The notes beneath the pieces are model-generated. The model was not told where the DNA came from, made no database searches, and was given only the letters and a program-made list of their open reading frames with translations. A stretch of DNA of 64,000 nucleotides from Clostridiales bacterium (GTDB lineage Bacteria; Bacillota; Clostridia; Lachnospirales; Lachnospiraceae), in the NCBI GenBank assembly GCA_023663185.1, contig JAMPHY010000003.1, positions 62,001-126,000 of the forward strand, in the 5' to 3' direction. Every line of letters begins with the position of its first letter. Position 1 is the stretch's first letter. The position numbers and the translations under genes were made by a program. This document shows positions 37,439-61,954 of the stretch, one piece after another.

Positions 37439-38746
37439 TTACTCTCCGGCTCCTTCCCAATATTCCAACCGTTCAAAATAGAACGACGGCATATACTCAT
37501 CATTAAAATACTCTATCGGATTGCCAATCCCCATATTACGCAGCTGGTCCTCGATTTCCTTATAGTAGATATTACAGATAAATACCGCACAGTCAGGTTC
37601 AAGCTCCTTAAGCGCCTCCGGCGGTCTTATCTTTAGTCCTTCAAACTGCTCTCCCCAACGCGCACTATTATTATCGCAGGTAAAAAGCGGCGGAAACTCT
37701 TCTCCATAACATTTCATAAAATTGCGGCACATATTTCCCGCACCAAATAAGACACGCTTGTCATATTTTTTCAATGCGCTTTTTATGCCTATCTGCCATT
37801 TAAAATATTCTGCAATAGTCTTCGCAAACGGTAAAATCTGTGGACGCAGCAGCGGTGGAATTGCGGCGGCTGTACTGCTAAAATCCATAATAAGAGCCCC
37901 GTCAAAACAGATTTCACGCAGTCCCCTTATGAGTCCAAGCCAGTCTGTCTGCGGTTTTTCATTGCCGACGACTGTATACGGAAGTAACGACTCCTCATTA
38001 TGTCCGTCACAGTCGCGTAAGATTACAGCTTTTATGCGGTTTTTAAGCGTAAGTATAAAATCCTGAATGTTCTGGGCACATAAACTGCATACGCCGACGT
38101 CCATACAGAAACCGAAACGCTCCTCTCCTACTTCCTCATTCAGCCTGTCAACCCATTCGACAGCTTCCGCTGCGTCGCTACAGATTCCGCGCACAAAATG
38201 ACCGTTTATATTAAAGCATTGATTTTCAAGAAGAATTGTAACGTCATGCTCCTTTGCCACAGCAGCAAGCTTAAGATAATACTCTCTGTTGGCATTCCAT
38301 TCATCGCCATGCGCTTCCCCTGTAAAAAGCGGTCTGACAATCAGATATTTACAGACGATATGTCCGCAGACCTTTATGCTCTCCATTGTCAGCTTTAACA
38401 ACAATCCATTCAAATCATCGCGCTCGGTATTCCTTCTAAGATAAGGCGCGCGCGCTGCCGGTATAGTAACATTTGTCGTCCTACACAGTTCAAACAATAC
38501 CTCAAGACTCTCCGCCATCTTCTCAGGATTTTCGGAAATCTTAATTATTTCCTTTTTCTCCGACCTCCGAATAATACTCTTATCTGTCTCCGCTATTTTT
38601 TTACCAAAATTTTCTAACTCCCACGGCGAACATCTCATAGCAATATCAAGCAGTATCTTATCGAATCCGCCTTTCTTTATGTCTAAAAGCCCCTTCTTGG
38701 GACGCTCTATTCCCATAAAGCTTGACGGCGCACATATAATTTCCAA
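37439..38746 (-). CDS. TIM-barrel isomerase fused to a Rossmann-like domain
   Basis: Residues 1-320 of the 435-residue protein form an isomerase-like barrel similar to the next gene (TILLENQCFNINGHFV, FGFCMDVGVCSLCAQN, AVILRDCDGHN, GALIMDFS). The expected HIHDNDG motif is changed to LRDCDGHN, so activity could differ. Residues about 329-415 are the Rossmann-like module seen through this locus: KRVLFGAGNMCRNFMKCY, then FTCDNNSARWGEQFEG, AVFICNIYYKEIEDQLRNMGI. A binding role for NAD, a nucleotide-sugar or a partner protein is possible but unproven. It lies 33 bases after the four-domain protein gene. Confidence 0.8.
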   Translation of the reverse strand: MEIICAPSSFMGIERPKKGLLDIKKGGFDKILLDIAMRCSPWELENFGKKIAETDKSIIRRSEKKEIIKISENPEKMAESLEVLFELCRTTNVTIPAARAPYLRRNTERDDLNGLLLKLTMESIKVCGHIVCKYLIVRPLFTGEAHGDEWNANREYYLKLAAVAKEHDVTILLENQCFNINGHFVRGICSDAAEAVEWVDRLNEEVGEERFGFCMDVGVCSLCAQNIQDFILTLKNRIKAVILRDCDGHNEESLLPYTVVGNEKPQTDWLGLIRGLREICFDGALIMDFSSTAAAIPPLLRPQILPFAKTIAEYFKWQIGIKSALKKYDKRVLFGAGNMCRNFMKCYGEEFPPLFTCDNNSARWGEQFEGLKIRPPEALKELEPDCAVFICNIYYKEIEDQLRNMGIGNPIEYFNDEYMPSFYFERLEYWEGAGE

Positions 38747-38779
38747 TTATTTATCCTCCATGCCGATTTTTACTTTTTC

Positions 38780-41089
38780 TTACTTTTCCCCGCTTAAATG
38801 CTCCTTAATCTCCGTTGAACTCGTAGTTTCCGTATAAGGAAAGAATACCATATCAGAACCATGCTTCTGTAAAAATACCTTCTTGGCAAGCCAGACAGGG
38901 TCATTCGCATAATCGCTGCCTGAAAACTGAGCATCAAAATGATACGTATGCCACGCATATTCTGTATCCGGATTATCAACCGGAATCTCAACCGCTTCGT
39001 CTACATACTTGCATGCCTGTACAATTGTAAGACGTTCATCAAACGGTATATATGGGCGCGTCTTTTTGCTCCTGATTATCTGTTCATCGGTCACAACCCC
39101 TACAATCAGATAATCACATTGCTCCTTCGCCCGCTTGAAAATATTCAAATGTCCTATATGAAACAAATCAAATACGCCCGCCACATAGCCTATATGATAC
39201 TTTTTAGGCGTCTCTTCCTGCGGCTTATATACCTGCTTAAGCGGTCTTACATACTCAAGTCTCGGATCATACACAGAAATATCCCTAATTCCCATCTCCT
39301 TTAACTGAGTAAGAACATCATCAAAAAACTTAATGCAGATAAACACCTTAAACGCTGCCTCTGTCTCCTCTAAAATTGACGGCGGATAAATCTCTATTCC
39401 CTGTAATTTTTCTCCCCATCTATCCGGATTATTATCAAGAATCCCTGCAATTTCATAATACTGTCCAAACTGCTCAATAAACTTCTCCGAATACTGCCCT
39501 GAGCCAAAAAGATACAGCTTTTTACTGCCTATTCCCTTAAAAATATCCTTAAACAGACGCTCATACTCCTCCTGAGAATAATCCATTCTATGCCTATTGG
39601 AAATCATAGTACTTGCGTCCCTTCTATGCTGCTTATGATAACCGGCAAGCTCCCTGTCATTCCGCAGTCTTTCTAAAAATTCATTGCCTCTGCCATACCA
39701 AGTCTTCTGATATTCGTAAAGCTTAAAATATTTAAGCAATTCCTCTAGCGGATATATTTTACCCAAATCAGGATTATCCCTGTATATAAAATTGATTGTC
39801 CTGATAAAAATAGCATTTGCCGGACAGTTCTCTATATAGAACTCCTGATCGAAAAACACGAAGCCTGCTTCTGTATGGAAACAATTGATGGAAACCATAT
39901 CTATGTAGCCTCTTTTTAAGATTACCCCGATATTTTCCTTTTCTTCTTTTGTACCAAACGCCCGCTTCTGCCATTGGTCGATGTTCGGATCATCTTTCTT
40001 ACGTTTCTGCCAACGCGGTTCAAACTGCCGCCAGTTCACTTCCTCATAGGGTACGTGCTCGGAAGATGCAAGTATCATATCACGGAACTTCTCAAGCTCA
40101 TTTATGAATTTCTGCTTATCAGTTCTAAGTGTTTCCCTGAAATAATCCGTTGCCATCTTTCCTTCAATATAAGGCATCGTATAAGTATCACCTTCAAGAC
40201 TTCCCTCCACTATAGGAACGCCATGTTTACGAAGATATTCTGCATTTTCAAATAAGCTTCCTACCTTCTGCCTTCCTTCCGGATGCAAAGCCCTTTTCAC
40301 TACCTGCTTATGAGATTTTATAATAGTAGCCATAGCTCCCTCACGGTCGCGCTCACCCTGCACAGTAATCTGGTCTATATCCAATATTTCTCCCCCTACA
40401 GTACATTCTATAAAAAAAGCGTTTGCCATTTGATGAAACATATGATTTTCCATCAGCGTTTCATATAAACGCTCTTCCTCAAGAAACAACGTTTCCGGAC
40501 TCTTATACTGCGGAAATACCCGTAAATCAATCGCCTCATTCGGTATATAGTCTTCTGCAATCAAAATCTGTGGTCTTACAAGTTCAGGCATAACCGCATA
40601 AAATCTGCGTTTGCTAAAGCCTGCATACGACAGCATTTTCTCATATTCCGCCTTAGAGTAGGCACGCCCTCCGATTACCTTTTTCCTCTGCTCGCTTACC
40701 TTTATATATCCATCAATTCCGTCCAGCACATGCCCCGAAAATGAATCCTTGTCGCCGCAGAAATAACGGATTGCAAGGCGGTTTTCTGCACCAAGTAAAA
40801 GTTTGCCCGATGATTTAAGCAGTCTTTTAAGCTTATCAAGCAGCTCCTTTGGTTCTTCGCTTCTTTCGATAATGCCTGCCGCCACAATATAATCAAACTC
40901 ACCCTCGATTGTATGAAGCTTAGAAAGTTCCGCCTTTACTACCCTGATATCTTTTTCCTCAAGTGCTTCAAAAAACACCTCGCATTCCGGCTTTCCCCCC
41001 GAAACAAAGAGAACTTCCGCATCTGCCTGAAAGCTATACCAGTTAATCAAGGCATTAGGTAAATCCCTGATAATTTCATCTGCATTCAT
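38780..41089 (-). CDS. Four-domain protein: methyltransferase-like, kinase-like, Rossmann-like and TagD-like cytidylyltransferase
   Basis: The 769-residue protein joins four parts. Residues about 20-165 look like a SAM methyltransferase with a weak glycine motif (EVLFVSGGKPEC, FDYIVAAGIIE). Residues about 240-430 resemble a kinase: Lys at 264-266 (VVKRAL), D397-x4-N402 (DMVSIN) and D414 (FFDQEF) fit the catalytic loop and the metal Asp. Residues 523-610 are the recurrent Rossmann-like module (LYLFGSGQYSEKF, GILDNNPDRWGE). Residues 632-769 are a glycerol-3-phosphate-cytidylyltransferase-like domain with HIGH at 644-647 and TSSTEI near the end. It could make and process a CDP-activated polyol. 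Confidence 0.82.
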   Translation of the reverse strand: MNADEIIRDLPNALINWYSFQADAEVLFVSGGKPECEVFFEALEEKDIRVVKAELSKLHTIEGEFDYIVAAGIIERSEEPKELLDKLKRLLKSSGKLLLGAENRLAIRYFCGDKDSFSGHVLDGIDGYIKVSEQRKKVIGGRAYSKAEYEKMLSYAGFSKRRFYAVMPELVRPQILIAEDYIPNEAIDLRVFPQYKSPETLFLEEERLYETLMENHMFHQMANAFFIECTVGGEILDIDQITVQGERDREGAMATIIKSHKQVVKRALHPEGRQKVGSLFENAEYLRKHGVPIVEGSLEGDTYTMPYIEGKMATDYFRETLRTDKQKFINELEKFRDMILASSEHVPYEEVNWRQFEPRWQKRKKDDPNIDQWQKRAFGTKEEKENIGVILKRGYIDMVSINCFHTEAGFVFFDQEFYIENCPANAIFIRTINFIYRDNPDLGKIYPLEELLKYFKLYEYQKTWYGRGNEFLERLRNDRELAGYHKQHRRDASTMISNRHRMDYSQEEYERLFKDIFKGIGSKKLYLFGSGQYSEKFIEQFGQYYEIAGILDNNPDRWGEKLQGIEIYPPSILEETEAAFKVFICIKFFDDVLTQLKEMGIRDISVYDPRLEYVRPLKQVYKPQEETPKKYHIGYVAGVFDLFHIGHLNIFKRAKEQCDYLIVGVVTDEQIIRSKKTRPYIPFDERLTIVQACKYVDEAVEIPVDNPDTEYAWHTYHFDAQFSGSDYANDPVWLAKKVFLQKHGSDMVFFPYTETTSSTEIKEHLSGEK

Positions 41090-41090
41090 A

Positions 41091-42155
41091 TTAAAAAGCC
41101 TGCCTTTCTCTCAACTTCAAAATCCCGATTGTTCTCTCAATTCCCTTACCAATATCATATTTTCCCTTCCAGCCAAGCGCTTCTAACTTTGAAGCGTCAA
41201 GTACCGCGTACTCGATAGGAGTCTGCTCTCTTCTCTCATTTTCATCAGGCGTCTTAATTACACAGTCCACACCTGCCATATTCGCAAGAATGCCCGCAAA
41301 TTCCGCTATTGTCACTCGCGAATCCTTATTAGCGATATTATATGCTTCTCCGTTTGCACCATTAAGCATAACGGTAAATATAGCGGATACACAGTCTGCT
41401 ACATAAGTATAACTGCGCATCTGCCTGCCTTCACTGTTCAAAATTATATCTTTTCCATCTGCCGCTTCATTAAAAAACTGCGCCGTCGCACGATTGTCAT
41501 GTAATGAAGTGCACGCTCCATAGACATGACTTAAGCGCGCTGCCGCTACTGGAACATGGTACTGCTCTTTAAAAGAAGCACATAACGTTTCCGCACAGCG
41601 TTTCGCCATTGGATAACAGGAGCGCACATTCATGCTGTCCAAATATCCCGACTCCTCTTCCATAAACGCATGCCCTTTATTAGTGGACTTTCCATATATC
41701 TCCCCACTTGAAATATACAAGAATTTCTTCACTGAATTATCCCTTGCATACTGTAATAACTGATATGTGCCAAATAGAGCCGGAGTCATCGTTTCCACAG
41801 GATGCTCCCTGAAAGCCGCGGGAAAACCGTCGCCAGCTGCATGTATAATATAGTCCACGGAAGTAACTATCTGTAACGGATTTACAATATCCTGAATAAT
41901 AAAATGCAGACAATCTTCATTTATACTCGTTGCAAACCGCTCTTTAAGCCTCTTTTCATCACGCGCAAGAAGATAAATTTCAATTCCCGCATTTTTTTCT
42001 CTGTTTGCATATAACAACATGTCCGCGGCAAAAGAGCCGATTAATCCGGTTGCACCAGTAATGAGGATACTCTTATGATATATTTTATCCATATCTACAA
42101 TACTGTTTAATGCGGTTTTTAAATCTTCCACATATATCTCGTTATGAAGATACAC
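41091..42155 (-). CDS. NAD-dependent epimerase/dehydratase (extended SDR)
   Basis: Translation probably starts at GTG (42153-42155), six bases after GGAGG. The 354-residue protein has the extended SDR features: ILITGATGLIGSFAADMLL (NAD-binding glycine motif at about 30-48), catalytic YISSGEIYG region and Y-x3-K as YPMAKRCAE, and the downstream GEAYNIANKDSRVTIAEFA. Such enzymes change sugar-nucleotides by epimerisation, reduction or dehydration. It sits one base upstream of the four-domain gene and 34 bases after the cytidylyltransferase gene. A CDP-linked sugar or polyol is thus a reasonable substrate guess. Confidence 0.88.
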   Translation of the reverse strand: MYLHNEIYVEDLKTALNSIVDMDKIYHKSILITGATGLIGSFAADMLLYANREKNAGIEIYLLARDEKRLKERFATSINEDCLHFIIQDIVNPLQIVTSVDYIIHAAGDGFPAAFREHPVETMTPALFGTYQLLQYARDNSVKKFLYISSGEIYGKSTNKGHAFMEEESGYLDSMNVRSCYPMAKRCAETLCASFKEQYHVPVAAARLSHVYGACTSLHDNRATAQFFNEAADGKDIILNSEGRQMRSYTYVADCVSAIFTVMLNGANGEAYNIANKDSRVTIAEFAGILANMAGVDCVIKTPDENERREQTPIEYAVLDASKLEALGWKGKYDIGKGIERTIGILKLRERQAF

Positions 42156-46551: not shown

Positions 46552-47481
46552 TCACTTTTTGGGTTTCGGATATTCTGTTGACTTAGCCACATCTGAAAGC
46601 GTTATGTTATCCCAAGACAATCTGTCAATTTCTTTTACCTTTTTTCCAAAATATTCAGAGTGGCAATACAACCCTCCTACTTTTCTTCCAACCAAATAAT
46701 CTGAAGCGTATTCAGAAAATTTCCCTTCGATTAAATTACTTACACTCTTTTTTACGCACTGCATACCAAATTTCTCTGGAAATAAGACATCTAGAGCATT
46801 CTCACTAAATTGAAAGAAATGCCATGGTCTTTCATGGCTGGAATATGAATAATGTGTCTCGACAAAAACAGCCCCCCCCATCTTCAAAAGTTTTATAATT
46901 TCTGTTGAAACTTTCCATGGCATAGCCAAATGCTCAAAAACAGCGCTACTGAAAATCAAGTCAAATTTGTGTTCAAAATATTTACTCAATTCATGCGCAT
47001 CACCGACAACGTCAACATTTTCTCCAGTATAATAATCAAATCCTATATAATTCGCATTAGAAAAAAACTTACGCATAGGATTCCCTGTCACATTTCGCGA
47101 ACCTATTTCCAATATATCAATTCCTTCCTTATTAAACATATTAGAAAGATACGATATCCAATTACCATGGCAAATATCAGTATCTACGTTGACATCACTG
47201 TGATGATATGTATCAGATTCCGCCAGCCTGTAATTCTCTATACCAAGTTCACTTAATTGTTTTTCTGCTTCCATATAATTCGCCATGGTTATTAAAATTT
47301 CATAATCTTTGTATATTTCCATATATTCGTCTATTCCTATAATAGGAATCTTATTTTCAAACAGCTTTCCACACAAATCAGGGTTATTATCCAATACGGC
47401 AACTATATCAAATTTTCTCCATGGATTGTAATAATAATTCTTTCCTCTCTTCCCAGCTCCAAATATAACTACTTTTTTCAT
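46552..47481 (-). CDS. Rossmann-like module fused to a SAM methyltransferase
   Basis: Residues 1-95 of this 309-residue protein are the recurrent Rossmann-like module at the N-terminus: VVIFGAGKRGKNYYYNPW, AVLDNNPDLCGKLFENK, ILITMANYMEAEKQLSELGI. Residues about 105-220 are a class I methyltransferase with DILEIGSRNVTGNP (motif I), GDAHELSKYFEHKFDLIFSSAVFEHL, and LLKMGGAVFVETHYS. It may methylate a sugar or glycan end. The DNA is noticeably richer in A and T than the left half of the window. Confidence 0.85.
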   Translation of the reverse strand: MKKVVIFGAGKRGKNYYYNPWRKFDIVAVLDNNPDLCGKLFENKIPIIGIDEYMEIYKDYEILITMANYMEAEKQLSELGIENYRLAESDTYHHSDVNVDTDICHGNWISYLSNMFNKEGIDILEIGSRNVTGNPMRKFFSNANYIGFDYYTGENVDVVGDAHELSKYFEHKFDLIFSSAVFEHLAMPWKVSTEIIKLLKMGGAVFVETHYSYSSHERPWHFFQFSENALDVLFPEKFGMQCVKKSVSNLIEGKFSEYASDYLVGRKVGGLYCHSEYFGKKVKEIDRLSWDNITLSDVAKSTEYPKPKK

Positions 47482-49329: not shown

Positions 49330-50616
49330 TTATATAATATAAAAATTCTTCTCTATATTACTTCCCGCCAAATATTCATGAATCCCAAGTTCTGATAATT
49401 TTTGCTCCATCTGCACATATATTTCACTTCCTTTAACTACCGCTATAATAACTAACGCATCTGAGTAGTGGGCTAACGCATCTTCTATTAAAAGAATATC
49501 CCGATTAGCCATCTTGTTTTTCGGCGGATTTTTTGATACAGCAAAACAAGCTATCTTATGATAGTATCCTTCATTACACAAATTACGTAATATACGGTCA
49601 CCCCTGTTTCCAGCTCCATAAATAATGATACTTTTGCAAGTATCCAGTTTTTGTTTTATCTCGTTTTTTTCTGCAATCATCTGATTGCAAATCTCATCAG
49701 GATTTTTAACTAATTCACGAAACCACTTATCGATTGCGATATTATCTTTTATATACGCTTTATATTTTTGGTAATCGGTAGTAAGCTGCTCGCAAAACAT
49801 TCTTTTATATTCATCAGCTATCCTATAAAATGTTCCTCTGGATCGAACTAAGCGATACATATAACAATAAGGCAAAAATCTCTCATCGCCCCTTTGCTTT
49901 AACAGCATTTCAATATATTTATACTCATTTGTCATTGCCATCATTTTTTTGGTACTCTTTACAGAAGCTTCGGGGTTATCCTGACGATAGTAATAAAATG
50001 CCTTATCAATCCACATCGCTCTTTCAGCATATATACACGTCTGTAACCAAAACCCATTATCCTGATAAGACGCTCCGGGAGTTTCCTGAAATCTGATATT
50101 TTTCTGCTTTAAGAAATTTTGTCTGTAAATCCCTGTCCAAATATTCATAAAAAAGTCAAAGAAAACGTTTCGGTCAGTTTCCTGCAAGACTTTATTATAA
50201 TAGGAATCCAGATTGTTCAAGTGTCTGTTACTCAAATAATTTGCTTTTTCTAACCAGTAATAAGCATCTGCTTTTACCATATCAAGCTCATATTGCTGCG
50301 CTGCATTATATAATGTTTCATACATATCAACGGCAATACAGTCATCGCTCTCAACAATACCAATAAATTCCCCTGCTGCCATATCTAGCCCAGTATTCAT
50401 TGAGATTCCATATCCTGCGTTCGCCTGATGCACAACACGCACCCTTGAATCTTTAGACGCATATGCATCAAGAATAACTCCACTATTGTCCGTAGAACCA
50501 TCATCAATACATATGATTTCAATATCTTCGAGGCTCTGCGCTAAAATACTCTCCATACATTTTTCTATGTATTGTTCCGAGTTGCAAACCGGAACTATAA
50601 CTGATACCTTGTGCAT
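49330..50616 (-). CDS. GT2 glycosyltransferase with C-terminal Rossmann-like module
   Basis: The start at 50616 (MHKVSVIVPVCNSEQYI) has an AAGGAG site. The longer frame does not. The GT-A domain of the 428-residue protein shows IICIDDGSTDNSG and GEFIGIVESDDCI (the D-x-D-like metal site), typical of GT2. Residues about 325-428 are the Rossmann-like module: KSIIIYGAGNRGDRILRNL, CFAVSKNPPKNK, ALVIIAVVKGSEIYVQMEQKLSELGI. It should add a sugar from a nucleotide-sugar to a lipid-linked glycan at the membrane. It is followed after 17 bases by the CBS-domain gene. Confidence 0.9.
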   Translation of the reverse strand: MHKVSVIVPVCNSEQYIEKCMESILAQSLEDIEIICIDDGSTDNSGVILDAYASKDSRVRVVHQANAGYGISMNTGLDMAAGEFIGIVESDDCIAVDMYETLYNAAQQYELDMVKADAYYWLEKANYLSNRHLNNLDSYYNKVLQETDRNVFFDFFMNIWTGIYRQNFLKQKNIRFQETPGASYQDNGFWLQTCIYAERAMWIDKAFYYYRQDNPEASVKSTKKMMAMTNEYKYIEMLLKQRGDERFLPYCYMYRLVRSRGTFYRIADEYKRMFCEQLTTDYQKYKAYIKDNIAIDKWFRELVKNPDEICNQMIAEKNEIKQKLDTCKSIIIYGAGNRGDRILRNLCNEGYYHKIACFAVSKNPPKNKMANRDILLIEDALAHYSDALVIIAVVKGSEIYVQMEQKLSELGIHEYLAGSNIEKNFYII

Positions 50617-50685
50617 CTTAGTCTCCTTTACCGTCCTTAGTCTGATATCTTTGCAAACCGCCATCTATCCATTTATCAAGGGAAG

Positions 50686-52182
50686 TCATAGCATACCCAT
50701 AATACGCAGGAAACGCTCACAATTCTTATCATCTTGATACTCATGAATATAATCTCTAACTTTCCTTCTCTGCTCAGCATATAAATCAGTTTCACTTTTC
50801 ACACCATTAATAAATTGTAACATGTCCTCATATGAATACAACTTTTCGCCCGGCATATAATCAAACGGATTATCCACTGAAAATCCCATCAGATAATCTT
50901 CCATATCATCCACCGTGTAAGCAATAGGACGGTCTAAAAGCATATAGTCAAAAGCAATAGAAGAATAATCGGAAATCAAAGCATCCGTTTCCCTCATAAG
51001 TGAATGAATTGTAAAATCATATCTATCCAACATATCCTGCGGAAGAAAAACAATATTTTTATAATTATCTACTTTATATACTGATAAATCCTGATGAGGA
51101 TGCGGCTTGATTACTAATTTCACTCCCATTTCACCTAAATACTTATCCAATATCCCTAATTCTTCTTTTGACTTTATTAATGGAATTCCTAAAGGAGCCG
51201 TATGTTTAACATCATTACGTTGTACATGTTTCGACTGCCTAAGCGTAGGCAGCCACAATATATATTTTTTATCAGGTTCCCATTTCCCTAAAGTCTGTAG
51301 TACATCTTTACGCTTATACAAGAAATCCAGTCTCGGCGAACCACAAATTATCAACTTATCTTTTGAGATACTTTCCTGTTCTGAGGCAAGGTCCACATAA
51401 TTTCGTGAAGTACAGATTGCTCCAACCACTTCCTCTGGTATACATAATTTCCCTTTTACATTTTTGAGCATAAACGTCCCATGTTTTAAGTACACGGCAA
51501 TCTGTTCATCTCTCTTTTTGGGTATTCCGTGGTTTTCGTAGTATAAGTAACGAGCGGTATTATGGTAATACTTGTCCTTCCAAATATCAAGCAAATTGGG
51601 GATTTTGTCATAAAAGTGCCTATCTATATAAGCTACATGTCTAGCATGTGTAAAATTATTTGGATGGTTGCATATCCAAACAATTTTATACTTCTTTAGC
51701 AAACCATGTTCCGACATATATTCAGACAAAGCTAGTGCATTCTCTCTATTATCCCCTTCCCCTTGAAACATTACAGTATTTCTTAAAGATAATTTTGCAA
51801 TTAATGCATCCATTTTCTTCTCTAACAAATAATAATATTCCGGACATCGGTACACAATATTATGTCTTAGTTCTGCATATCCGTCTAATTGTTTCTCCAC
51901 CTCAACATACTGCTTTATCATAATTACAATAATAGTTTTCCTGCTTATGTGATTTCGCATATATTCGGGCGAATGAACTGTAACCTTAATACCCCCCAGT
52001 GTCTTAACTGTATCCCATGTTTCCTGATTATTATCCACTATATAATCAACATATTTTTCAAAATGATATCCTTTAAACCTCAGGAATGTGCCTTCAAGTT
52101 TCTTTCCCGCCCCAAAAATAACCATTCTACTATTTTTAAGCTTGTGTAAAAGCGTACATGCGCTTATTTCTCTTGCTCTCAT
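50686..52182 (-). CDS. TagB/TagF-like polyol-phosphate transferase with N-terminal Rossmann-like module
   Basis: The ATG at 52180-52182 overlaps the stop of the upstream gene by one base (TGATG) and follows GAGG. Residues about 18-125 of the 498-residue protein are the Rossmann-like module (RMVIFGAGKKLEGTFLRFKG, DYIVDNNQETWDTVK). The rest matches CDP-glycerol:poly(glycerophosphate) glycerophosphotransferases: LPTLRQSKHVQRN, KLVIKPHPHQD, and DALISDYSSIAFDYMLLDRPI. It would move glycerol- or ribitol-phosphate from a CDP-polyol to the growing glycan. This fits the two cytidylyltransferases downstream. Confidence 0.9.
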   Translation of the reverse strand: MRAREISACTLLHKLKNSRMVIFGAGKKLEGTFLRFKGYHFEKYVDYIVDNNQETWDTVKTLGGIKVTVHSPEYMRNHISRKTIIVIMIKQYVEVEKQLDGYAELRHNIVYRCPEYYYLLEKKMDALIAKLSLRNTVMFQGEGDNRENALALSEYMSEHGLLKKYKIVWICNHPNNFTHARHVAYIDRHFYDKIPNLLDIWKDKYYHNTARYLYYENHGIPKKRDEQIAVYLKHGTFMLKNVKGKLCIPEEVVGAICTSRNYVDLASEQESISKDKLIICGSPRLDFLYKRKDVLQTLGKWEPDKKYILWLPTLRQSKHVQRNDVKHTAPLGIPLIKSKEELGILDKYLGEMGVKLVIKPHPHQDLSVYKVDNYKNIVFLPQDMLDRYDFTIHSLMRETDALISDYSSIAFDYMLLDRPIAYTVDDMEDYLMGFSVDNPFDYMPGEKLYSYEDMLQFINGVKSETDLYAEQRRKVRDYIHEYQDDKNCERFLRIMGML

Positions 52183-53789
52183 CAAAATTCCTCTTTCCGA
52201 ACAACACTCACAATTTCAGCCAATGAAATCATAGGTATATCTGTTTTCTTGCTTAACCTTTGTCTGATAGAATCTTCCTCATACACAGGTGTAATAACAA
52301 TGCAGTCTGCTTCTGGAATTTCCTTATCTCCGTTTATCATAGGAAAAGCTTCATTTATATTGTATAATCTCTTATCAATTACACAAACAATATTAATGTC
52401 GCTGCCGCTTAAATCCGCTATTAAGTGATGTGCCATTTTTCCCATTCCATATATTATAATATTTTTTATTCTCCGTTCCTCAAAATATTGCCTTATGCTA
52501 ATATTCTTTTCCCGCAAAAGCATCCATTTCTCCAAAAGCTGATAATAGGCCTTATACATTTTTGCCGTATTATCGGCTTTCATTTCTATAGCATCAAGAC
52601 TTTTTAATTTTTCTGTTTCAAACTCCGGTGTTATTTTTATGTCTTTTTTATTAACCTCTTCTATTGCATTAAGCCATATCAATCCTATATGTTCTATAGA
52701 AAATTTCTCTGCTCTTTCACGTGCTTTTTCCGCCATATTACGCCGCAATTCATTATTCTTAAGTAGATATACTATTTCATCTGCTAGTTGTATTTCTTCT
52801 TTAGTCAGTTGTTCCGTATAATATTCTTTTATATCAGGAACTAATATTCCACATTCACCTCGTATAGGCTCTAATATGTCTCCTTGTTCGCACGAGATAT
52901 TAAGCACTTCTCTAATACCCCCCGGACAATCACATGCCACCACCGGCACTCCGGCGCTAAGAGCCTCCAACGAAGCACATGATAATGATTCTAATCGTGA
53001 CGTTATCGTAAATATTTTTGCTTTTTTCAGATAATCTTGAACATTTGTAACATTCCCAACCATCTTAACATCATTTTTCAGTCCTAATTCAAGTACAAGT
53101 TTTTCCAATTTAGGTCTTAATTCTCCATCTCCTAAAATAATCAATTTACAATCAGGGCATTTTTCTTTAACTGCTTTAAACGCCCGTATGATGTGCCATT
53201 GGCGTTTTATACTATGCATCCTTCCAATAGAAATAACTATATTTTTCTTATTTTCATCTTCTTTTACCGTCATAGCATGAACCGGATTGTATATGGTTTT
53301 GGTAATATTATTCTTATCACCATAATTTTCTATCCACTCCTTTTGGCAATACTCAGACGGAAACGTAATCAAATCCGCATATTGATATAAATCACGAAAT
53401 GTACCATCAGCCCAAAATACCGATTTATCATATTTGGCATATTCAGAATTTACACTGTGCGTCGTAAGAATAATCTTATCTCGACCTTTCGCCAATATAT
53501 TAATATAGTTTGCAAACTGCATAAAACTAATAGAAATATCAATATTATACTGTTCTTTTAAGTTATGCAATTCCATTACTTTTTTTTCAATGGCGCTCTT
53601 ACCGGAACCGTCTAAATTGTATGTAAAATTCACCAATTCTCCTTTATAATTGTATCCTACATCACAAGATAAATCCGTAAAAAACACAACATTATACCCA
53701 TGTTCATAAAAATATACACTTAAATCCGCGGCACATCTCTCTGCCCCACCGCCTTGCAGACAGTTTACAATCATTCCTATAGTTTGCAT
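52182..53789 (-). CDS. GT4 glycosyltransferase with C-terminal Rossmann-like module
   Basis: The second in-frame ATG (53787-53789) lies ten bases after AAAGGA and is the better start. The 535-residue protein has a GT-B fold: VNCLQGGGAERCAADLS at the N-terminus, then IVISIGRMHSIKRQWHII, IILGDGELRPKLE, and the E-x7-E motif in SRLESLSCASLEALSAGVPVVACDCPGG. Residues about 440-530 carry the Rossmann-like module (NIIIYGMGKMAHHLIADL, CVIDKRLYNINE, DCIVITPVYEEDSIRQRL). Its N-terminal coding region contains one copy of the 26-bp direct repeat that brackets the neighbouring island. Confidence 0.9.
   Translation of the reverse strand: MQTIGMIVNCLQGGGAERCAADLSVYFYEHGYNVVFFTDLSCDVGYNYKGELVNFTYNLDGSGKSAIEKKVMELHNLKEQYNIDISISFMQFANYINILAKGRDKIILTTHSVNSEYAKYDKSVFWADGTFRDLYQYADLITFPSEYCQKEWIENYGDKNNITKTIYNPVHAMTVKEDENKKNIVISIGRMHSIKRQWHIIRAFKAVKEKCPDCKLIILGDGELRPKLEKLVLELGLKNDVKMVGNVTNVQDYLKKAKIFTITSRLESLSCASLEALSAGVPVVACDCPGGIREVLNISCEQGDILEPIRGECGILVPDIKEYYTEQLTKEEIQLADEIVYLLKNNELRRNMAEKARERAEKFSIEHIGLIWLNAIEEVNKKDIKITPEFETEKLKSLDAIEMKADNTAKMYKAYYQLLEKWMLLREKNISIRQYFEERRIKNIIIYGMGKMAHHLIADLSGSDINIVCVIDKRLYNINEAFPMINGDKEIPEADCIVITPVYEEDSIRQRLSKKTDIPMISLAEIVSVVRKEEF
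53692..53717. repeat. 26-bp direct repeat, left copy
   Basis: This 26-bp stretch is identical to 56321-56346 and in the same orientation. Here it lies inside the GT4 gene and encodes V-Y-F-Y-E-H-G-Y on the minus strand. Together the copies bracket the peptidase island (53718-56320). Confidence 0.85.
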
Positions 53790-53887
53790 ATATATTATCA
53801 TTCCTTTATAAAATTCTTTCGTTCATAGTCTTATATTTATACCTTGGAAACAAAGTTCAAAATATTCAAAATAATCGTACATTTTTC

Positions 53888-54180: not shown

Positions 54181-54771
54181 CACTTCTTCCATAAGTGTAA
54201 TTTTTCCGCTCTGTATCTGAATTACCTTCAGTTTCGCCAAACCATTTATTGCCGTATAAAATTCTTGTACCAGATCATCAACCCTAAGATTATCTTCTAT
54301 CTCAGTACTCACCTTTTCTCTCAAAATATCTTCCTGTATTGACCTGCATTTCTTTACCTCATAACCATTATTATGCAAAAACATTACTATTATCCCCATT
54401 GCCGGAGACAGCTTCACTTTACATTTTCGCAGTTCAGAAAAAATTGTCAATACAACCATAATAATAGCCCATTTATCAAATATTATAATACCGGGTACAT
54501 TTGATAATAATAAAAGGATAAATTCAAAGTTAAACCTAATATTGGGTAGTTTTGTAGTTCTATAACTTCCTTCCCCATAATCAATACATGAATATGAAGG
54601 TTCTTCCGTCTGATCATCAATGACCGATCTTCTTATTATACTTTGTACAGTATTTATCCCTACTGCCTGTTCATTAGTATTTTTATAATAAGCTCTTTGA
54701 TATTCTTCCAGTGCTTTATCCTGTTCACCTACAACCCTTTCCAAATAATCATATAATGTAAAATCAATCAT
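54172..54771 (-). CDS. Small membrane protein in the peptidase island, unknown function
   Basis: The 199-residue protein begins MIDFTLYDYLERVVG after a GGGGGG site. A hydrophobic stretch of two short helices (FEFILLLLSNVPGIIIFD and WAIIMVVLTIFSEL, about 82-115) makes it a membrane protein. The remaining parts are charged and probably cytoplasmic. Its start lies inside the end of the upstream 489-aa peptidase-like gene (8-base overlap), so they are made together. The first codons and leader (AATATATGATTGA) closely resemble those of that gene, as if the translation start had been duplicated. No known family is recognised. Confidence 0.75.
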   Translation of the reverse strand: MIDFTLYDYLERVVGEQDKALEEYQRAYYKNTNEQAVGINTVQSIIRRSVIDDQTEEPSYSCIDYGEGSYRTTKLPNIRFNFEFILLLLSNVPGIIIFDKWAIIMVVLTIFSELRKCKVKLSPAMGIIVMFLHNNGYEVKKCRSIQEDILREKVSTEIEDNLRVDDLVQEFYTAINGLAKLKVIQIQSGKITLMEEVKI

Positions 54772-56233
54772 ATATTTCCCCCCAAACCATAGTTTCTTTC
54801 AATTTAATATTATTAATATCTTGCAAATTATTTTCATATATACGGTACGGTCCAATATCACATGGAAGGTATGATAATTTTCTCTCGTACTCCATCAGCT
54901 TTATTGATTCTGAATCCTGAATCATCAGCCATGGGACATCATCACGTGTTCCAACTGTAGAATCAGCTATTACCCTTGCAGACATTAAACCTTTTTTGCT
55001 CTCCTCAATAGTAGACAAATCAATACACCAAATAAACCGCGGCATATCCATTAAGAGCAGCCTTTCTTTTAGTACTGAATTCATTAAATTGTTCCTTTTA
55101 GCCTTTTCCTTAAAAGAATTAGAACTGGTTAAATAAATTCTACAGATTTGCGTTCCATTCAATTTCATTATTTTTTCAGATATCAATGCCATAAATTTCT
55201 CATATATTTCATTAAACCCTAATAATACTTTCTGACAGTAAGGCACTATCAAATAATTTATCTCTTTCAAAGCATAATCTATATCTTTATCTGAACATGG
55301 CATCTCAATATCAACCTGCTTATACGGAAAATGATTATCATCCATTGCATACACCGTAGTAATCAAAGAAGAATGTAAGATAATATCACTATTAGGTTCT
55401 TTCAACTTACTAATATCGCCAGTCAGCATATCATAATCTACCCGCCCATGTCCAAAAAGTGTAACAGCATGCCGCTTCTTATTCATTGTTGCAACAATCG
55501 GTATGCCCGATTCAATATATGCAATGATTTCTTTAACAAAATAATGTAGCTTGTTATACTCATCACCCAATAAAACAGGAGAAAAATTATACAAATCTAA
55601 CGTATCAACAATTTGATTTGGCGTTAATCCTTTTGATGGTATCTTCCTTCCCCTGTCATTTTGAACCATCTCAACAATCTCGCCCATCACAGTGTCCCTA
55701 TGTCCTTTATAACGATTTCCGTAATACCTTAAAATACTCCACATCGCCACATGCGCACATACAGAAACATCCGTCTCCTGTTTCATCCACGGAAATACAT
55801 CCACGAGTAATTTCTCACCAAAAACATCTGCTGAAAAAGTATCTAGCATCAGATAAGCATCTACTCCTTCGTCAATCAACAACTTCGGTGATAAATAGGT
55901 TTTTCCAATTTTTGAATCCTTTATGCCTTCACGCAATGATATATATCCATAATATATTCTGGAATTACTTTCTTTATTTATTTCTCCAAAAAAATGAAGT
56001 CTAAAACATACTTTAGAATGTATCGTATGTTGTTTTGAATAAAAGGTATAATATGTACTCAAATAGTCTTTTTCATAGTATGGGTATTCTATCAATAATG
56101 CGGCAGCCTTTGTTCCTATATATTTTTTCAAAATAGACACAACGCTCAAATCTATATGTGTTTCATCAATATAATCCAACAGTTGGTCGTAATCATCTAT
56201 CGTATTTATTTCAATTTTTCCAAAGTCAATCAT
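54764..56233 (-). CDS. C39-like cysteine peptidase domain protein
   Basis: I see a papain/C39-type catalytic set in this 489-residue protein. Q152 and C159 lie in KQETDVSVCAHVAMWSILRYYG (the family's Q-x6-C spacing). H255 lies in KRHAVTLFGHGR. An Asp/Asn follows at 298-300 in AMDDNHFPYKQV. The regions before (1-140) and after (310-489) are not recognised. No signal peptide or ABC domain is present, unlike bacteriocin-exporting C39 proteins. It has its own promoter (56257-56285) and is coupled to the 199-aa membrane protein. It may cut or modify a peptide such as the 63-aa product, which is inference only. Confidence 0.65.
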   Translation of the reverse strand: MIDFGKIEINTIDDYDQLLDYIDETHIDLSVVSILKKYIGTKAAALLIEYPYYEKDYLSTYYTFYSKQHTIHSKVCFRLHFFGEINKESNSRIYYGYISLREGIKDSKIGKTYLSPKLLIDEGVDAYLMLDTFSADVFGEKLLVDVFPWMKQETDVSVCAHVAMWSILRYYGNRYKGHRDTVMGEIVEMVQNDRGRKIPSKGLTPNQIVDTLDLYNFSPVLLGDEYNKLHYFVKEIIAYIESGIPIVATMNKKRHAVTLFGHGRVDYDMLTGDISKLKEPNSDIILHSSLITTVYAMDDNHFPYKQVDIEMPCSDKDIDYALKEINYLIVPYCQKVLLGFNEIYEKFMALISEKIMKLNGTQICRIYLTSSNSFKEKAKRNNLMNSVLKERLLLMDMPRFIWCIDLSTIEESKKGLMSARVIADSTVGTRDDVPWLMIQDSESIKLMEYERKLSYLPCDIGPYRIYENNLQDINNIKLKETMVWGEIYD

Positions 56234-57518: not shown

Positions 57519-57953
57519 CTATAAACTTAGAATTACTTCTTCCAATGAAACAATTTTGGAACTTGTCAGTTTTTCTAATTTTTCTTTAATTGATTTATAT
57601 TCCATAATAGGAGTTACGACTATTACATCCGCTTCGGGAATATTACTAATGTCATTCATTAAGTCATGTTCAGCATTATTATATCGAATTATATTTTTGT
57701 CGATTGTGTAAATAACAGGAAACGAGCTGTTTTCTAATTGAGTCATTAAATGATTGCCTAAGAAACCAGTTCCATATATTGCAGCTTGATTATAGCCATT
57801 ATCAATAAAGAACGAAGATATATCTCGCCCTTCCTCAATAGCTTTCATCCAAAAATGCAGTAAATAAAAAAAATTTATGAATTTCTCTTTACATTTTTGC
57901 TCAGCTTCATTATCTATCTGATATATGCTTAAATCTATAATTTGTTCTTTCAA
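57519..57953 (-). CDS. Stand-alone Rossmann-like module
   Basis: Translation starts at TTG (57951-57953), nine bases after GGGAGG. The 144-residue protein has a helical lead-in (KFINFFYLLHFWMKAIEEGRDISSFF) and then the module: QAAIYGTGFLGNHLMTQL, YTIDKNIIRYNNAEHD, EADVIVVTPIMEYKSIKEKLEKL. The lead-in and module match the last 130 residues of the fused GT4 at 52182-53789 (YYQLLEKWMLLREKNISIRQYF...). It is eight bases upstream of a GT4 that lacks the module, so it may act in trans with it. The ligand is unknown. Confidence 0.8.
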   Translation of the reverse strand: MKEQIIDLSIYQIDNEAEQKCKEKFINFFYLLHFWMKAIEEGRDISSFFIDNGYNQAAIYGTGFLGNHLMTQLENSSFPVIYTIDKNIIRYNNAEHDLMNDISNIPEADVIVVTPIMEYKSIKEKLEKLTSSKIVSLEEVILSL

Positions 57954-58022: not shown

Positions 58023-59402
58023 CTATAACAATTCACATACATCCTTAATTCTATTAGTAAATTTTTCCTTAGTAAACCATTGCTCATAAGTTTCTCTTGC
58101 CTTTTCAGCAATTGATATCAATTTTTCTTTGTTCTCTAAACACCAACAAATGACCTTAGCTAATCCCTCACTATCTTCACTTTTAAAGACTAGTCCATTG
58201 TATTGATGCCTTATATATGCCGCCATACCTATAGCATCCGAAACAATACAAGGCTTTTCCAGCATCATTGCTTCCGTTGCGACCAATGACAGTGTCTCAC
58301 GACGAGATGGAACTATTACTATATCAGCTTCAGAATATACCTCAAACAGGTTTTTCCTTGACAATTCGCCAAGATATTGACAATTAGCATTTTTATCAAT
58401 ACGATCCCTAATCCTTTTTCCATACTCAGTATCATATGCCTTGCCCGCGAATAAAAACCTACATCGACTCGTAGCTTTCTCTGAAATATAGACTAAAGCA
58501 TCCAGTAAAACATCTATCCCTTTCAGTACATTATGACCGGCAGCAACCATAAAGGTTATAGTCGCGTTTTCCACACATAATTTATTTCCTTTATAACTAT
58601 CGCCAATCCCAAATGGCAAAAGTTCTATTTTCTTTTCTGTTTGAAAGATACTCTGAAAATTATTTCTTGCTACACCACTTACTGCACCGATTATTAATTG
58701 ATTGCTTTTAATTCCATTCACAATTTCATCATACCAATATTCATATGGTACATACGAATCTATACTGTCATGAATCCACAAATACACCTTCCTCTTTTGT
58801 GCCAGCTTAATAGCACACCGTAGCATTACAATTGTGTTTGCAAAAACATAAGTATACCCACTTGTCCACTCCAAATTTTCCATGCTCATAAACTCAAGAT
58901 AATCTACAACAACTACTTTTATACCTTCTTCTATCGAAATCTCATCCAACAATTTGCGTTCTGCACTAGGAACAACGATTGTAATCATGTAACCTTCCTG
59001 CCTCAGCACGTATGCCAAAATCATGCAAGTTATAGCACCACCGTGATACCCAAAATCATTTGACATTATCAGCACATTTTTAGCCAACTCAGCCATTTGT
59101 ATATTAGGTACTTTTACAGGTAAACTTCCAATATAATCTTTATAATGAACAATCTTCTCCGATTGAATTCCCATTATAAGCAACTGTTGCCTTATATCAA
59201 TAACATAGCTACTTGCAATAACTATACAATCATAATGGTACTGCTCTATATGTTCCGGAATGTCTACTACATATCCATCCATTAAAGTCCCGAAAATTTC
59301 CCGATTGTTATCTACTAAAGCCACAACCTCTGTATCTTCCCCATAAAAATAACATTTCACTTTATTATATATTTTCCCTATACCAAATATGATAATTTTC
59401 AT
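58023..59402 (-). CDS. GT4 glycosyltransferase with N-terminal Rossmann-like module
   Basis: Residues 1-95 of this 459-residue protein are the Rossmann-like module (MKIIIFGIGKIYNKVKCYF, ALVDNNREIFGTLMDGY, DCIVIASSYVIDIRQQLLIMGI). Residues about 110-459 are a GT4 enzyme: NDFGYHGGAITCMILAYVLR, TFMVAAGHNVLKGIDVLLDAL, FLFAGKAYDTEYGKRI, and E-x7-E in VPSRRETLSLVATEAMMLEKPCIVSDAIG. It should add a sugar to the surface glycan at the cytoplasmic face. The translation start context (GGTGAGATTATG) is the same as that of the GT4 gene at 57510. Confidence 0.9.
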   Translation of the reverse strand: MKIIIFGIGKIYNKVKCYFYGEDTEVVALVDNNREIFGTLMDGYVVDIPEHIEQYHYDCIVIASSYVIDIRQQLLIMGIQSEKIVHYKDYIGSLPVKVPNIQMAELAKNVLIMSNDFGYHGGAITCMILAYVLRQEGYMITIVVPSAERKLLDEISIEEGIKVVVVDYLEFMSMENLEWTSGYTYVFANTIVMLRCAIKLAQKRKVYLWIHDSIDSYVPYEYWYDEIVNGIKSNQLIIGAVSGVARNNFQSIFQTEKKIELLPFGIGDSYKGNKLCVENATITFMVAAGHNVLKGIDVLLDALVYISEKATSRCRFLFAGKAYDTEYGKRIRDRIDKNANCQYLGELSRKNLFEVYSEADIVIVPSRRETLSLVATEAMMLEKPCIVSDAIGMAAYIRHQYNGLVFKSEDSEGLAKVICWCLENKEKLISIAEKARETYEQWFTKEKFTNRIKDVCELL

Positions 59403-59527: not shown

Positions 59528-60637
59528 TTATTTTCTCTGCCCCAGAAGTAGTTGTGACGCATTTATTTTTTTCCTTATTATTGGATATACTTCATCAAAT
59601 GCTTTTTTCCCCAATGCTAAAATAATACCATCCTGTTTATCAAAAATCACATTCTCATATTCAAAAACATTATCATCAATTTCTGTTTTTTTCATCACCA
59701 AAAAGCCTTCATATTTCCAACCTTTATAACTAAAGTATCCGGCCATTCCTTGTCCATAATTACCATGACCATATATATATATTCTCTTATGTCCGTTATA
59801 AAATCGCTCAATGCCAGTGCTTTTAAAAGGATAAAGCACATCATTGTTTCCTTCTGCTTGAAGCCTCTTAAGATGAATATCAATCAGCTTAGTATCATAA
59901 CCTGTATTGTGTATTACATAATTTATAACCATTTCGACATTCTTAAAATTGCATAATGATATGGCCTTTCTCTTAATTACTGGAAATCTTATATTTCTAA
60001 CCAATTCATATGGGTAATTTATATATGGATTTCCAACATATTCTATTTCTGCACTATCCGTTAGCGCTCCACTTTTAAAACCATTTTGAGTAAAAAACAC
60101 CGAAAAATTAAGCTCAAAGCATTTAATTGCCTCTTGTAGAGTACTCGGATATTTAAGATTTCTCCAAAATTCTTCCCACAATTCAGACATAATTAATGAT
60201 TTTCTGCACACCAAAAAGAATGATTGAATATGCGAAGGTATTATATTCCCTTCCATTTGAGCATTAATATTTCTTGACAATCCCCAAAAATCCACATCTA
60301 ACTCTTCCATTTTGTTAAAAGTCTCTTTCCAAGAATACAACGGACCATAAAATGTATCATTAAATAAAACTATTTCATCCCATTGCCTGAAATCTTCTTC
60401 TGCTAAATACTTTGTAAAAATATCCTTATATGCCCCCGCATCAAATCCAACATTTTCGCGTACATAAATATCATATGAATATTTTTTTAATTTATTATAT
60501 TCATTATTTCTAATTCCACCGTTTATGATAATTACCACTCTTTGCAAGACTTCCTGCATACTATCTAGTAGCACTTCTACATATTTATCTACAATTCCAG
60601 AGGCATCATAAAAAACAAAAATTCCCATTCTTTTCAT
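59528..60637 (-). CDS. RgpF-like glycosyltransferase with C-terminal Rossmann-like module
   Basis: The start is uncertain. I use the ATG at 60637 (MKRMGIFVFYDASG), 12 bases after AGGAG. A TTG at 60646 is only three bases from it. Residues 1-260 resemble rhamnan synthesis protein F: GIVDKYVEVLLDSMQEVLQRVVIIINGG, YVRENVGFDAGAYKDIF, DEIVLFNDTFYGPLY. Residues about 275-369 are the Rossmann-like module (KRIYIYGHGNYGQGMAGYFSYKG, GIILALGKKAFDEVYPIIRK). RgpF-type proteins add rhamnose or related sugars in cell-wall polysaccharides. The sugar here is unknown. Confidence 0.82.
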   Translation of the reverse strand: MKRMGIFVFYDASGIVDKYVEVLLDSMQEVLQRVVIIINGGIRNNEYNKLKKYSYDIYVRENVGFDAGAYKDIFTKYLAEEDFRQWDEIVLFNDTFYGPLYSWKETFNKMEELDVDFWGLSRNINAQMEGNIIPSHIQSFFLVCRKSLIMSELWEEFWRNLKYPSTLQEAIKCFELNFSVFFTQNGFKSGALTDSAEIEYVGNPYINYPYELVRNIRFPVIKRKAISLCNFKNVEMVINYVIHNTGYDTKLIDIHLKRLQAEGNNDVLYPFKSTGIERFYNGHKRIYIYGHGNYGQGMAGYFSYKGWKYEGFLVMKKTEIDDNVFEYENVIFDKQDGIILALGKKAFDEVYPIIRKKINASQLLLGQRK

Positions 60638-60760
60638 ATGTAACAAGTTCTCCTATACTTTTAAACAACAGACAATTCCATATTTTCCTCAAGCTCATCA
60701 TACACAAATCCCAAAATGATTCTTCAGTACCAATGTTGTATCCATTTCTTTCTGTTATAC

Positions 60761-61954
60761 CTATTCTCTCATACAAAAGTAATTATTTATTCCCATTTTT
60801 TCCAATGCATTCACAATTGTTTGAGTAGCCTGTCGGCTCACAGCAACAATAATTCCCATTCCATTTTCATAAATTAACTGTTCAATCCCTAATACCGGTA
60901 TTGGCATATTATTATAATCTTGGTCTTTTTGTGAAACCAAAAAATTCCGTGGTACATATCCCATATCTGTTAAATATCGATAAACACCCATACCTATTTT
61001 ACCTGCACCGTAAATATAAATAACCTTATGTACAGAAACATAGTCTATTAGCTCCTTTAGGCGTTTAATGCCAAACAAATTACAAACTTCATATCTGTCC
61101 TTAATTATTGGAAATGACTTTCTCCTGCACTCTATCAAGAAATTCATATAAACAGTCGCATATGTATTATTCATAACAGTACAAGAATGATATCCCGCAT
61201 CCTCTGCTAAATATCCAAAAATACGTTCTACCGCATAACTCTTTGCATTTTCTGGCAGCGGTTCGTCATCAAAATCCTCATAATTCCATTCTTTTACCAA
61301 TATCTTTTTAATTGCACAGGTTCGTGCCCAAAAACATGTTCCTAACGCAATCGGTTGGTTTTCAATATCCGAATCTATATCCACACAAACTTTAAGTTCC
61401 TCTGCCAATTTTCGAGTTTGAAACACATTGGGTTCAATCCACGAATTATACGGGGCAAAAAACTCTCCTATAGGCTCTGGCGGAACCAGCAATCCCAAAC
61501 TCTTATCCCTATCAAATGTTGCAAGAATATCAAAAAAATACCCTGTACCTTTTTCACCTAACATATTACCCCATAAATTATCAATCCATAATGTAATATC
61601 CTTTTTCTCCCTTTCTCGTTTTTCTTTCTTATCATGTAAGAAACACACATACTCATACTGTAACATTATTTCTCTATAAGTCACCAAAAGCGACGTTATA
61701 TCTCTTCCACGATTTTCTTTATGGCAAACAGTAATATTCCTTTTCTGTTCTACTGCATATTTATTAACCTTATCTTCAACCCATTTATCTGAAGATGATA
61801 TATATATAGGGATACTTTTAGGAATACGGTTAATATATGTAAAATATTTATCTAAGGTATCCCGATAGTGCAAATGAATAAATACTGCTGCCTGCCCGGC
61901 ATATATATCATAGTTATATTTTGATTCTCCTGATAAAATCATTATTTGTTGCAT
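60761..61954 (-). CDS. RgpF-like glycan synthesis protein with C-terminal Rossmann-like module
   Basis: The start at 61954 (MQQIMILSGESKY) follows GGGAG by six bases and leaves a 25-base gap to the upstream gene. The longer frame would overlap it. The body of the 397-residue protein matches the RgpF family: AVFIHLHYRDTLDKYFTYI, CHKENRGRDITSLLVTYREIMLQYEYVCFLHDKKEKRE, WIDNLWGNMLG, FWARTCAIKKIL. Residues about 300-397 are the Rossmann-like module (KVIYIYGAGKIGMGVYRYL, IIVAVSRQATQTIVNALEKMGI). It probably builds or extends a deoxyhexose-containing glycan. Confidence 0.85.
   Translation of the reverse strand: MQQIMILSGESKYNYDIYAGQAAVFIHLHYRDTLDKYFTYINRIPKSIPIYISSSDKWVEDKVNKYAVEQKRNITVCHKENRGRDITSLLVTYREIMLQYEYVCFLHDKKEKREREKKDITLWIDNLWGNMLGEKGTGYFFDILATFDRDKSLGLLVPPEPIGEFFAPYNSWIEPNVFQTRKLAEELKVCVDIDSDIENQPIALGTCFWARTCAIKKILVKEWNYEDFDDEPLPENAKSYAVERIFGYLAEDAGYHSCTVMNNTYATVYMNFLIECRRKSFPIIKDRYEVCNLFGIKRLKELIDYVSVHKVIYIYGAGKIGMGVYRYLTDMGYVPRNFLVSQKDQDYNNMPIPVLGIEQLIYENGMGIIVAVSRQATQTIVNALEKMGINNYFCMRE

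Follow-up and report, generated by a model that had tools for sequence, protein, structure and literature searches.

The window analysed here is a 64,000-nucleotide stretch from a Clostridiales bacterium of the family Lachnospiraceae (contig JAMPHY010000003.1, positions 62,001 to 126,000), and within it lies a glycan locus in which ten genes, all on the minus strand, encode proteins carrying one small half-Rossmann module of about 85-90 residues. Partner domains are assigned by Pfam unless otherwise stated, and module matches are given as independent E-values (i-E). The gene at 37439..38746 encodes a probable pseudo-TIM barrel, ketose 3-epimerase-like in its Foldseek fold and degenerate at its metal site, with a C-terminal module (37508-37768, i-E 1.4e-26). 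It adjoins a TIM-barrel paralogue that has intact metal-site motifs and no module (36496..37503, minus strand; PF01261 at 1.4e-21). The protein encoded at 38780..41089 comprises a methyltransferase-like N-terminus, an internal module (39269-39529, i-E 3.3e-24) and a C-terminal cytidylyltransferase-like domain; its middle, at about residues 200-500, matches no Pfam family at E 1. An N-terminal module precedes a methyltransferase in 46552..47481 (module 47221-47481, i-E 3e-22) and a Glyphos_transf domain of the TagB/F type in 50686..52185 (51853-52137, i-E 1.1e-14). Between these two genes, 49330..50664 encodes a GT2 glycosyltransferase with a C-terminal module (49366-49641, i-E 4.1e-15).

Further along, 52182..53801 encodes a GT4 glycosyltransferase joined by a helical W-M linker to a C-terminal module (52221-52472, i-E 1.9e-16), and 58023..59402 a second GT4 enzyme preceded by its module (59148-59402, i-E 8.1e-20). 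The gene at 57519..57953 encodes a stand-alone copy, comprising a long predicted helix, the W-M linker and the module (57543-57797, i-E 2.6e-16). The last two genes, 59528..60646 and 60761..61996, together form a split RgpF: the first matches residues 1-242 and the second residues 260-503 of the 503-residue Pfam profile, and each half has its own C-terminal module (59552-59794, i-E 2.4e-11; 60770-61030, i-E 8.1e-18). All ten genes had been located by an initial annotation made from the DNA letters, with some ends off by a few codons (at 49330-50664, 52182-53801, 59528-60646 and 60761-61996). Its placement of the module, C-terminal in five proteins, N-terminal in three, internal in one and alone in one, was borne out throughout.

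The initial annotation had proposed that these ten proteins share one domain on unrelated catalytic partners. Since segment identity to the first alignment row is just 14-34%, we chose a leave-one-out test with profile hidden Markov models (HMMs). In a search of 290 open reading frames (ORFs) of the window, each nine-segment HMM recovered the held-out segment (10/10), with domain i-E values from 5.9e-14 to 4.4e-5, the weakest being that of 59528-60646. The best E-value was 0.25 among the best four non-members per model and 0.11 among the best two reversed ORFs per model, and the ordinary NAD-binding epimerase of the same operon, 41091-42155, gave no match to the full ten-row profile. The only invariant columns in the alignment of the ten segments are the two glycines of the G-x-G loop. 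The (F/Y)G-x-G motif occurs in all ten as described, but the D-N-N and D-K motifs reported for the second strand are found in five and two, respectively, and the acidic residue at this position is absent from 49330, 59528 and 60761. No Pfam family exceeded its cut-off on the module segment of any of the ten proteins; the nearest was C2185-like_N on 58023-59402, at 26.9 bits against a cut-off of 27. The ten segments are one homologous module of common descent, carried by catalytic partners that are indeed unrelated.

The module is confined to a single glycan locus in the source genome (3.83 Mb, 94.8% complete). At E 0.01, a search with all ten rows gave 13 matches, all between positions 99487 and 132277 of the window's contig (C33, 218 kb). 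With a refined profile, five such proteins besides the ten were recognised immediately beyond the window's right edge, so that the locus has 15; all ten members listed by the initial annotation stand, and these five were missing from it. They comprise a sulfatase-like protein, one member each of the TylF and FkbM groups, and two more. The sulfatase-like gene is cut by the window edge (63019..64000, minus strand; PF00884 at 24.8 bits, cut-off 25), and its N-terminal module falls beyond that edge, at 64435-64683 when the window numbering is continued (i-E 6.6e-10). The weakest of the 15 modules is that of 68283-69326 in the same numbering (i-E 1.7e-6). A broader profile, A5, built from the full-length 38780-41089 protein together with 100 modules out of 148 selected in relatives (101 rows), gave a weaker result, with four matches, all on C33, among eight first-pass candidates; its first row is a whole protein, and it is the poorer model for this search. 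By comparison, Pfam GT2 has 32 matches on seven contigs, so the module marks this locus and not glycan genes generally. The expected clustering of profile matches at one locus is thus found in the source genome, and chance similarity and a generic Rossmann background are rejected because of the leave-one-out HMMs, which brought no other window ORF near, and the own-genome search, which found none elsewhere at E 0.01.

To place the module among relatives, we searched further genomes. Matches at 1e-4 occur in 26 of 41 related genomes (the source genome included), with up to 25 copies, and in 20 of 24 other genomes of the same genus. Across the phylum, 69 of 398 genomes match at 1e-5, a figure that overstates the module because many are single Rex-like ORFs; with the best 11 candidates per genome scored, at least 14 of the 398 (the source genome included) have three or more matches. 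Length and position were the sole criteria by which the single Rex-like ORFs in other genomes, of about 210-230 residues, were recognised. Nine loci of this kind were removed before partner groups, nearest modules and motifs were counted, which left 287 modules in 284 proteins from 46 genomes. Before this step, 296 modules comprised 121 C-terminal, 113 N-terminal and 23 internal copies and 39 in ORFs of fewer than 200 residues, some of the last being cut at locus edges.

At phmmer E 1e-6, the 245 partner regions of at least 110 residues formed 63 groups, of which 34 have a single member; this number of groups is likely too high, as profile methods would merge some. Among 20 representatives, each of which lends its name to its own group, Pfam labels were GT2, GT4, FkbM and TylF methyltransferases, cytidylyltransferase, TIM barrel, DUF4422, radical SAM, Gly_transf_sug, HAD, TupA ATP-grasp, DUF268 and DUF1796, with two unlabelled; the window proteins add RgpF and Glyphos_transf. 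By BLOSUM score, the nearest module has a partner of the same group in 149/287 cases (shuffles: mean 22.9, maximum 43), and therefore many of the fusions are old. The nearest module comes from the same genome in 23/287 (shuffles: mean 13.3, maximum 26). Homogenisation within a genome was looked for and not seen, modules on different partners having a mean identity of 0.194 within and 0.196 between genomes.

An alignment scan with the type of 37439-38746 (hereafter p1; its relatives are the p1 type) gave 188 relatives, from which 80 loci were kept. Most are labelled as Lachnospiraceae (Dorea, Roseburia, Butyrivibrio, Acetatifactor, Lacrimispora, Hungatella and metagenome-assembled genomes, MAGs), and there are also three MAGs labelled Selenomonadaceae and a rumen MAG labelled Desulfovibrio. 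Among the 54 full loci (about 21 kb), the mean number of module proteins is 5.65, and module genes are tightly packed, 351/478 same-strand neighbours lying less than 100 nt apart or overlapping, although the loci partly overlap and pairs may be counted twice. When we masked the module and searched with the partner alone, the relatives found carried the module in 84/85 cases for 37439, 67/68 for 38780, 1/1 for 46552, 61/61 for 49330, 2/4 for 50686, 7/7 for 52182, 11/11 for 58023, 11/12 for 59528 and 6/6 for 60761, counts that are biased, since the loci searched were those already collected for having a module or a p1-type protein, and some of these loci overlap.

AlphaFold models were examined for the p1 protein (mean predicted local distance difference test score, pLDDT, 91.5) and for the stand-alone copy 57519-57953 (p7; pLDDT 86.7), in which a 33-residue helix lies ahead of the module. 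Both models have the beta-alpha-beta start, G-x-G loop and acidic strand-2 end of a Rossmann-type fold, and the G-x-G with its acidic residue is kept in 194/287 modules. Among the partner groups, the full motif occurs in TIM 11/11, cytidylyltransferase 11/11, TylF 7/7, radical SAM 7/7, FkbM 16/18, GT2 45/61 and GT4 19/24. The conserved p1-type segments GAGNMCR, CDNN, CN and NDE follow strands 1, 2, 4 and 5, respectively. Across 54 p1-type sequences, 17/28 ligand-side loop positions are invariant versus 2/33 on the opposite side (permutation p 0.0014), and over all 287 modules the mean information is 1.41 bits on the ligand side versus 0.88 on the other (p 0.01), with loops taken from the secondary structure of the p1 model and their limits set by hand. 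In the modelled fold, p1-type conservation has the pattern of a binding crevice for a putative ligand.

The p1 protein offered a further view of what is conserved. Its barrel matches UlaE by Foldseek at 7.7e-13. In the p1-type proteins, both histidines of H-x-H and the histidine of D-x-G-H are gone in 11/11, residues that we take to bind metal and substrate, as in sugar epimerases; the last glutamate is replaced by Asp in nine, Asn in one and Ala in one, the first glutamate is kept in 8/11 and the aspartate in 10/11. All of these metal-site residues are intact in the adjoining 36496-37503 and its relatives (11 rows, of which one is doubled). Within the 80 loci, (LIVM)-H-(IVLM)-H-(DE) occurs in 0/74 p1-type proteins, and H-(IVLM)-H in 77/79 ORFs of the intact type. 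The barrel of 37439-38746 would thus have lost its activity, judging by its residues, and the protein is probably a pseudoenzyme; the partner first described as an isomerase is epimerase-like in its barrel but degenerate at its metal site. For 70/74 p1-type genes, an intact-type gene is found no more than 300 nt away, and such pairing of intact and degenerate barrels suggests a heteromeric or regulatory pseudoenzyme. Between p1-type proteins the module has a mean identity of 66% versus 42% for the barrel, and is the higher in 55/55 pairs; between relatives and the window protein the values are 69% and 51%, with the module higher in 80/80. By these identities, the module, and not the barrel, is the part that the p1 type has kept.

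These data also bear on an account of the module as ordinary background, namely that its copies were recruited separately, or are left over, from NAD-binding domains and have no role in common. The Rossmann fold is widespread, a Foldseek search with the stand-alone copy's model returned generic Rossmann matches and no specific relative (best E 3.2e-3), and the ten-row profile picks up the single Rex-like ORFs of other genomes. The complete leave-one-out recovery, the absence of matches elsewhere in the source genome and the greater constraint on the p1-type module than on its partner all speak against this account, which we consider highly improbable. Outside the p1 type, module and partner conservation give a mixed picture at the level of sequence. 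The module is the more alike in 41/55 cytidylyltransferase, 21/33 RgpF, 111/165 GT4 and 11/21 radical SAM pairs, and, relative to single window proteins, in 0/2 comparisons for 50686, 11/11 for 58023 and 5/9 for 59528.

We then compared the module with known domains. A profile search of the PDB with A5 matched 3nkl (1.3e-11), Rex (6.7e-10), VioB (4.3e-7), 2g6t (4e-6) and residues about 148-240 of WbaP (3e-4), and in Pfam the A5 rows matched PglD_N (22), CoA_binding (13), Methyltransf_14 (12) and C2185-like_N (12 of 101) at E 0.01. The module is a half-Rossmann domain akin to CoA_binding_3, PglD_N and C2185-like_N, and no Pfam model covers it well. The comparison with PglD-N and CoA- or NAD-binding folds that had been proposed therefore yields a Rossmann fold and kinship at the profile level, but nothing specific from the stand-alone model.

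PglD_N, found in the PglD, NeuD and VioB acetyltransferases, has the same motif order as the module. It is typically fused to a left-handed beta-helix acetyltransferase; no acetyltransferase partner was found among the ten window proteins and 20 relatives scanned. PglD_N (PF17836) scores 14.9 and 13.3 bits on window proteins, below its curated cut-off of 23.4, and reaches 32.3 on a relative (L065:17032-18153). C2185-like_N (PF22674) is likewise an N-terminal half-Rossmann domain, and residues 1-102 of 2g6t, which we take to be protein C2185, match the profile; in contrast, 89/101 rows have no match to it at E 0.01, and 2g6t is labelled uncharacterised. Methyltransf_14, the C-terminal domain of sugar C-methyltransferases, matches rows at best 7e-11, with 4rv9 at 0.014, but is named for one enzyme class, whereas the module occurs on many. 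Rex NADH-binding and TrkA/Ktr Rossmann domains, which also match by profile, are ligand-sensing domains whose partners are a DNA-binding domain or transporters, not glycan enzymes.

The N-terminal domain of PglD/VioB-type acetyltransferases probably holds the nucleotide half of the substrate, and by analogy each module could bind a nucleotide-sugar substrate by its nucleotide half on behalf of the catalytic domain to which it is joined. The matches to PglD_N, Methyltransf_14 and VioB would fit such a role, as would the tendency of modules to go with partner type. GT2 and GT4 enzymes, however, have donor sites of their own, and neither the stand-alone copy nor the module on the probably inactive epimerase has an obvious substrate to hold, so we regard this role as unlikely.

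A second alternative starts from the stand-alone copies. Among the 18 genomes in which untruncated module proteins number at least five, 17 also encode short copies of fewer than 200 residues, one to three each (permutation p 0.0034); the exception is G003. Ten stand-alone proteins scanned gave no Pfam family above cut-off. An N-terminal membrane segment is predicted in 17/30 stand-alone copies in which 40 or more residues precede the module (16/29 without near-identical ones), compared with 8/398 module enzymes and 94/714 ORFs of 120-200 residues, by a simple hydrophobicity test that is crude and gives many borderline values. With near-identical sequences removed, the helical W-M linker is found ahead of 30 stand-alone and 30 C-terminal modules. 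The module could then be a pure docking tag, which binds no ligand and gathers the enzymes at the membrane through like-with-like contacts to a membrane-anchored stand-alone copy; the absence of the crevice motif from some partner groups would agree with this. Against it, p1-type conservation lies on the ligand side, the window's own stand-alone copy (57519-57953) fails the hydrophobicity test for a membrane segment, and in the 80 loci only 19/376 module ORFs are shorter than 200 residues, in 17 loci and in some cases cut at edges. Moreover, different-partner modules are equally alike within and between genomes, which indicates no mutual adaptation of one locus's modules in overall identity and argues against a tag peculiar to the locus but leaves room for a general contact surface. 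We consider pure docking possible, if on the unlikely side, and somewhat likelier than substrate holding. A more elaborate reading is a ligand-gated assembly line, in which the stand-alone module, often predicted to be membrane-anchored in relatives, recruits the enzymes through their own copies, a nucleotide by-product bound in the shared crevice switches the whole assembly on or off, and a dead epimerase retained for its module is a scaffold part; it appears doubtful, and more so than either of these.

We favour, with a probability of roughly 0.4, a non-catalytic accessory module that combines sensing of a nucleotide-type ligand with contacts between proteins and so serves shared feedback and assembly rather than catalysis. 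Many enzymes belonging to a single glycan pathway would have acquired such a module. The crevice formed by the G-x-G after strand 1 and the D-N-N or D-K after strand 2 would, in most copies, bind a predicted small nucleotide-type ligand common to the pathway, with a nucleotide by-product or a nucleotide sugar as candidates. The module may pass the state of this ligand to its own enzyme and to neighbouring modules, by analogy with the WbaP DUF described below. Where the crevice is degenerate (in RgpF halves, DUF4422 proteins and many stand-alone copies), the modules would mainly be contact parts, and the stand-alone copy, often predicted to be membrane-anchored in relatives, would be the hub. 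As an accessory domain of a known superfamily, the module is of a known kind; its spread over one pathway is of a striking scale.

How soluble glycan enzymes stay together and match demand is an open question in the field. If modules on glycosyltransferases, methyltransferases, cytidylyltransferases and a pseudoenzyme read one ligand or hub, a cell could regulate the pathway from one point, and anyone engineering sugar assembly lines would gain a portable component. Likewise, a module with G-x-G and D-N-N next to an unknown enzyme would flag glycan genes in gut Lachnospiraceae.

The DUF of WbaP, a large phosphoglycosyl transferase, is a CoA_binding_3 (PF13727) domain and, by analogy, the best precedent for such a putative role. 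As reported for WbaP (PMC10942596), the isolated DUF gains stability with UMP, UDP and UTP and loses it with UDP-Gal, UMP inhibits WbaP with an apparent IC50 of 4.1 uM, most inter-chain contacts of the dimer sit in the DUF, and PglF-like dehydratases share it. The C-terminal beta-hairpin of the DUF crosses over in the dimer, and some EpsZ-type DUFs have no hairpin (PMC10942596, PMC12802240); DUF contacts have also been modelled in EpsZ and its partner EpsW (PMC12802240). A literature search of titles and abstracts returned no published description of this exact module. The initial annotation's statement that no function is described accordingly holds for the exact module in the literature searched, but the related domain of WbaP has one in print (PMC10942596). 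The common ligand it proposed gains from the ligand-side conservation and from the reported nucleotide sensing by that domain (PMC10942596), the ligand itself being putative. Taken as a whole, its interpretation is supported in part, the docking tag that it offered as the other option being possible in view of the stand-alone copies, many with a predicted membrane anchor.

Several observations weigh against this sensing and assembly role. Although the module resembles CoA_binding_3 in being an accessory Rossmann-type domain on glycan enzymes, with profile matches to WbaP and 3nkl, it differs in occurring on many enzyme kinds, 15 times in one locus, and, judging by the secondary structure of the two AlphaFold models, in lacking a hairpin beyond strand 5. 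It falls outside PF13727, which matches at most 1/101 A5 rows at E 0.01 (it is absent from the 25 of 28 families listed) and which in the source genome matches one place, on C54, and none in this locus. UMP inhibition of WbaP may act partly at the active site (PMC10942596). The solved relatives bind differing ligands, and therefore the module's ligand cannot be read off from them. The full motif is incomplete in 93/287 modules and lacking in RgpF 9/11, DUF4422 7/7 and stand-alone 23/39. Finally, the module is more alike than its partner in only 24/153 FkbM and 1/21 DUF4422 pairs, and in 3/61, 1/7 and 1/6 comparisons with 49330, 52182 and 60761, respectively; for 38780, module and partner are about equally conserved (module higher in 28/67).

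Turning to the surroundings of the module genes, a lipid-linked pathway in cis was considered and set aside: an initiating phosphoglycosyl transferase, a Wzx-type flippase and an ABC-2 exporter (PF02397, PF01943 and PF01061) have no match on C33 at E 0.001, though the locus is rich in glycosyltransferases. A flagellin link in cis was set aside as well, the genome having eight flagellin matches and none on the window's contig, and a search for defence genes, with four of the ten module proteins scanned against PADLOC, matched none. Inside the glycan operon, 54172-56233 holds two genes, one weakly C39-peptidase-like (20.8 bits, cut-off 24) and the other without a Pfam match. Upstream of the operon and right of the window, L050:17568-19010 encodes a secreted-looking repeat protein whose start resembles a signal peptide by eye, and which could be a candidate glycosylation target.

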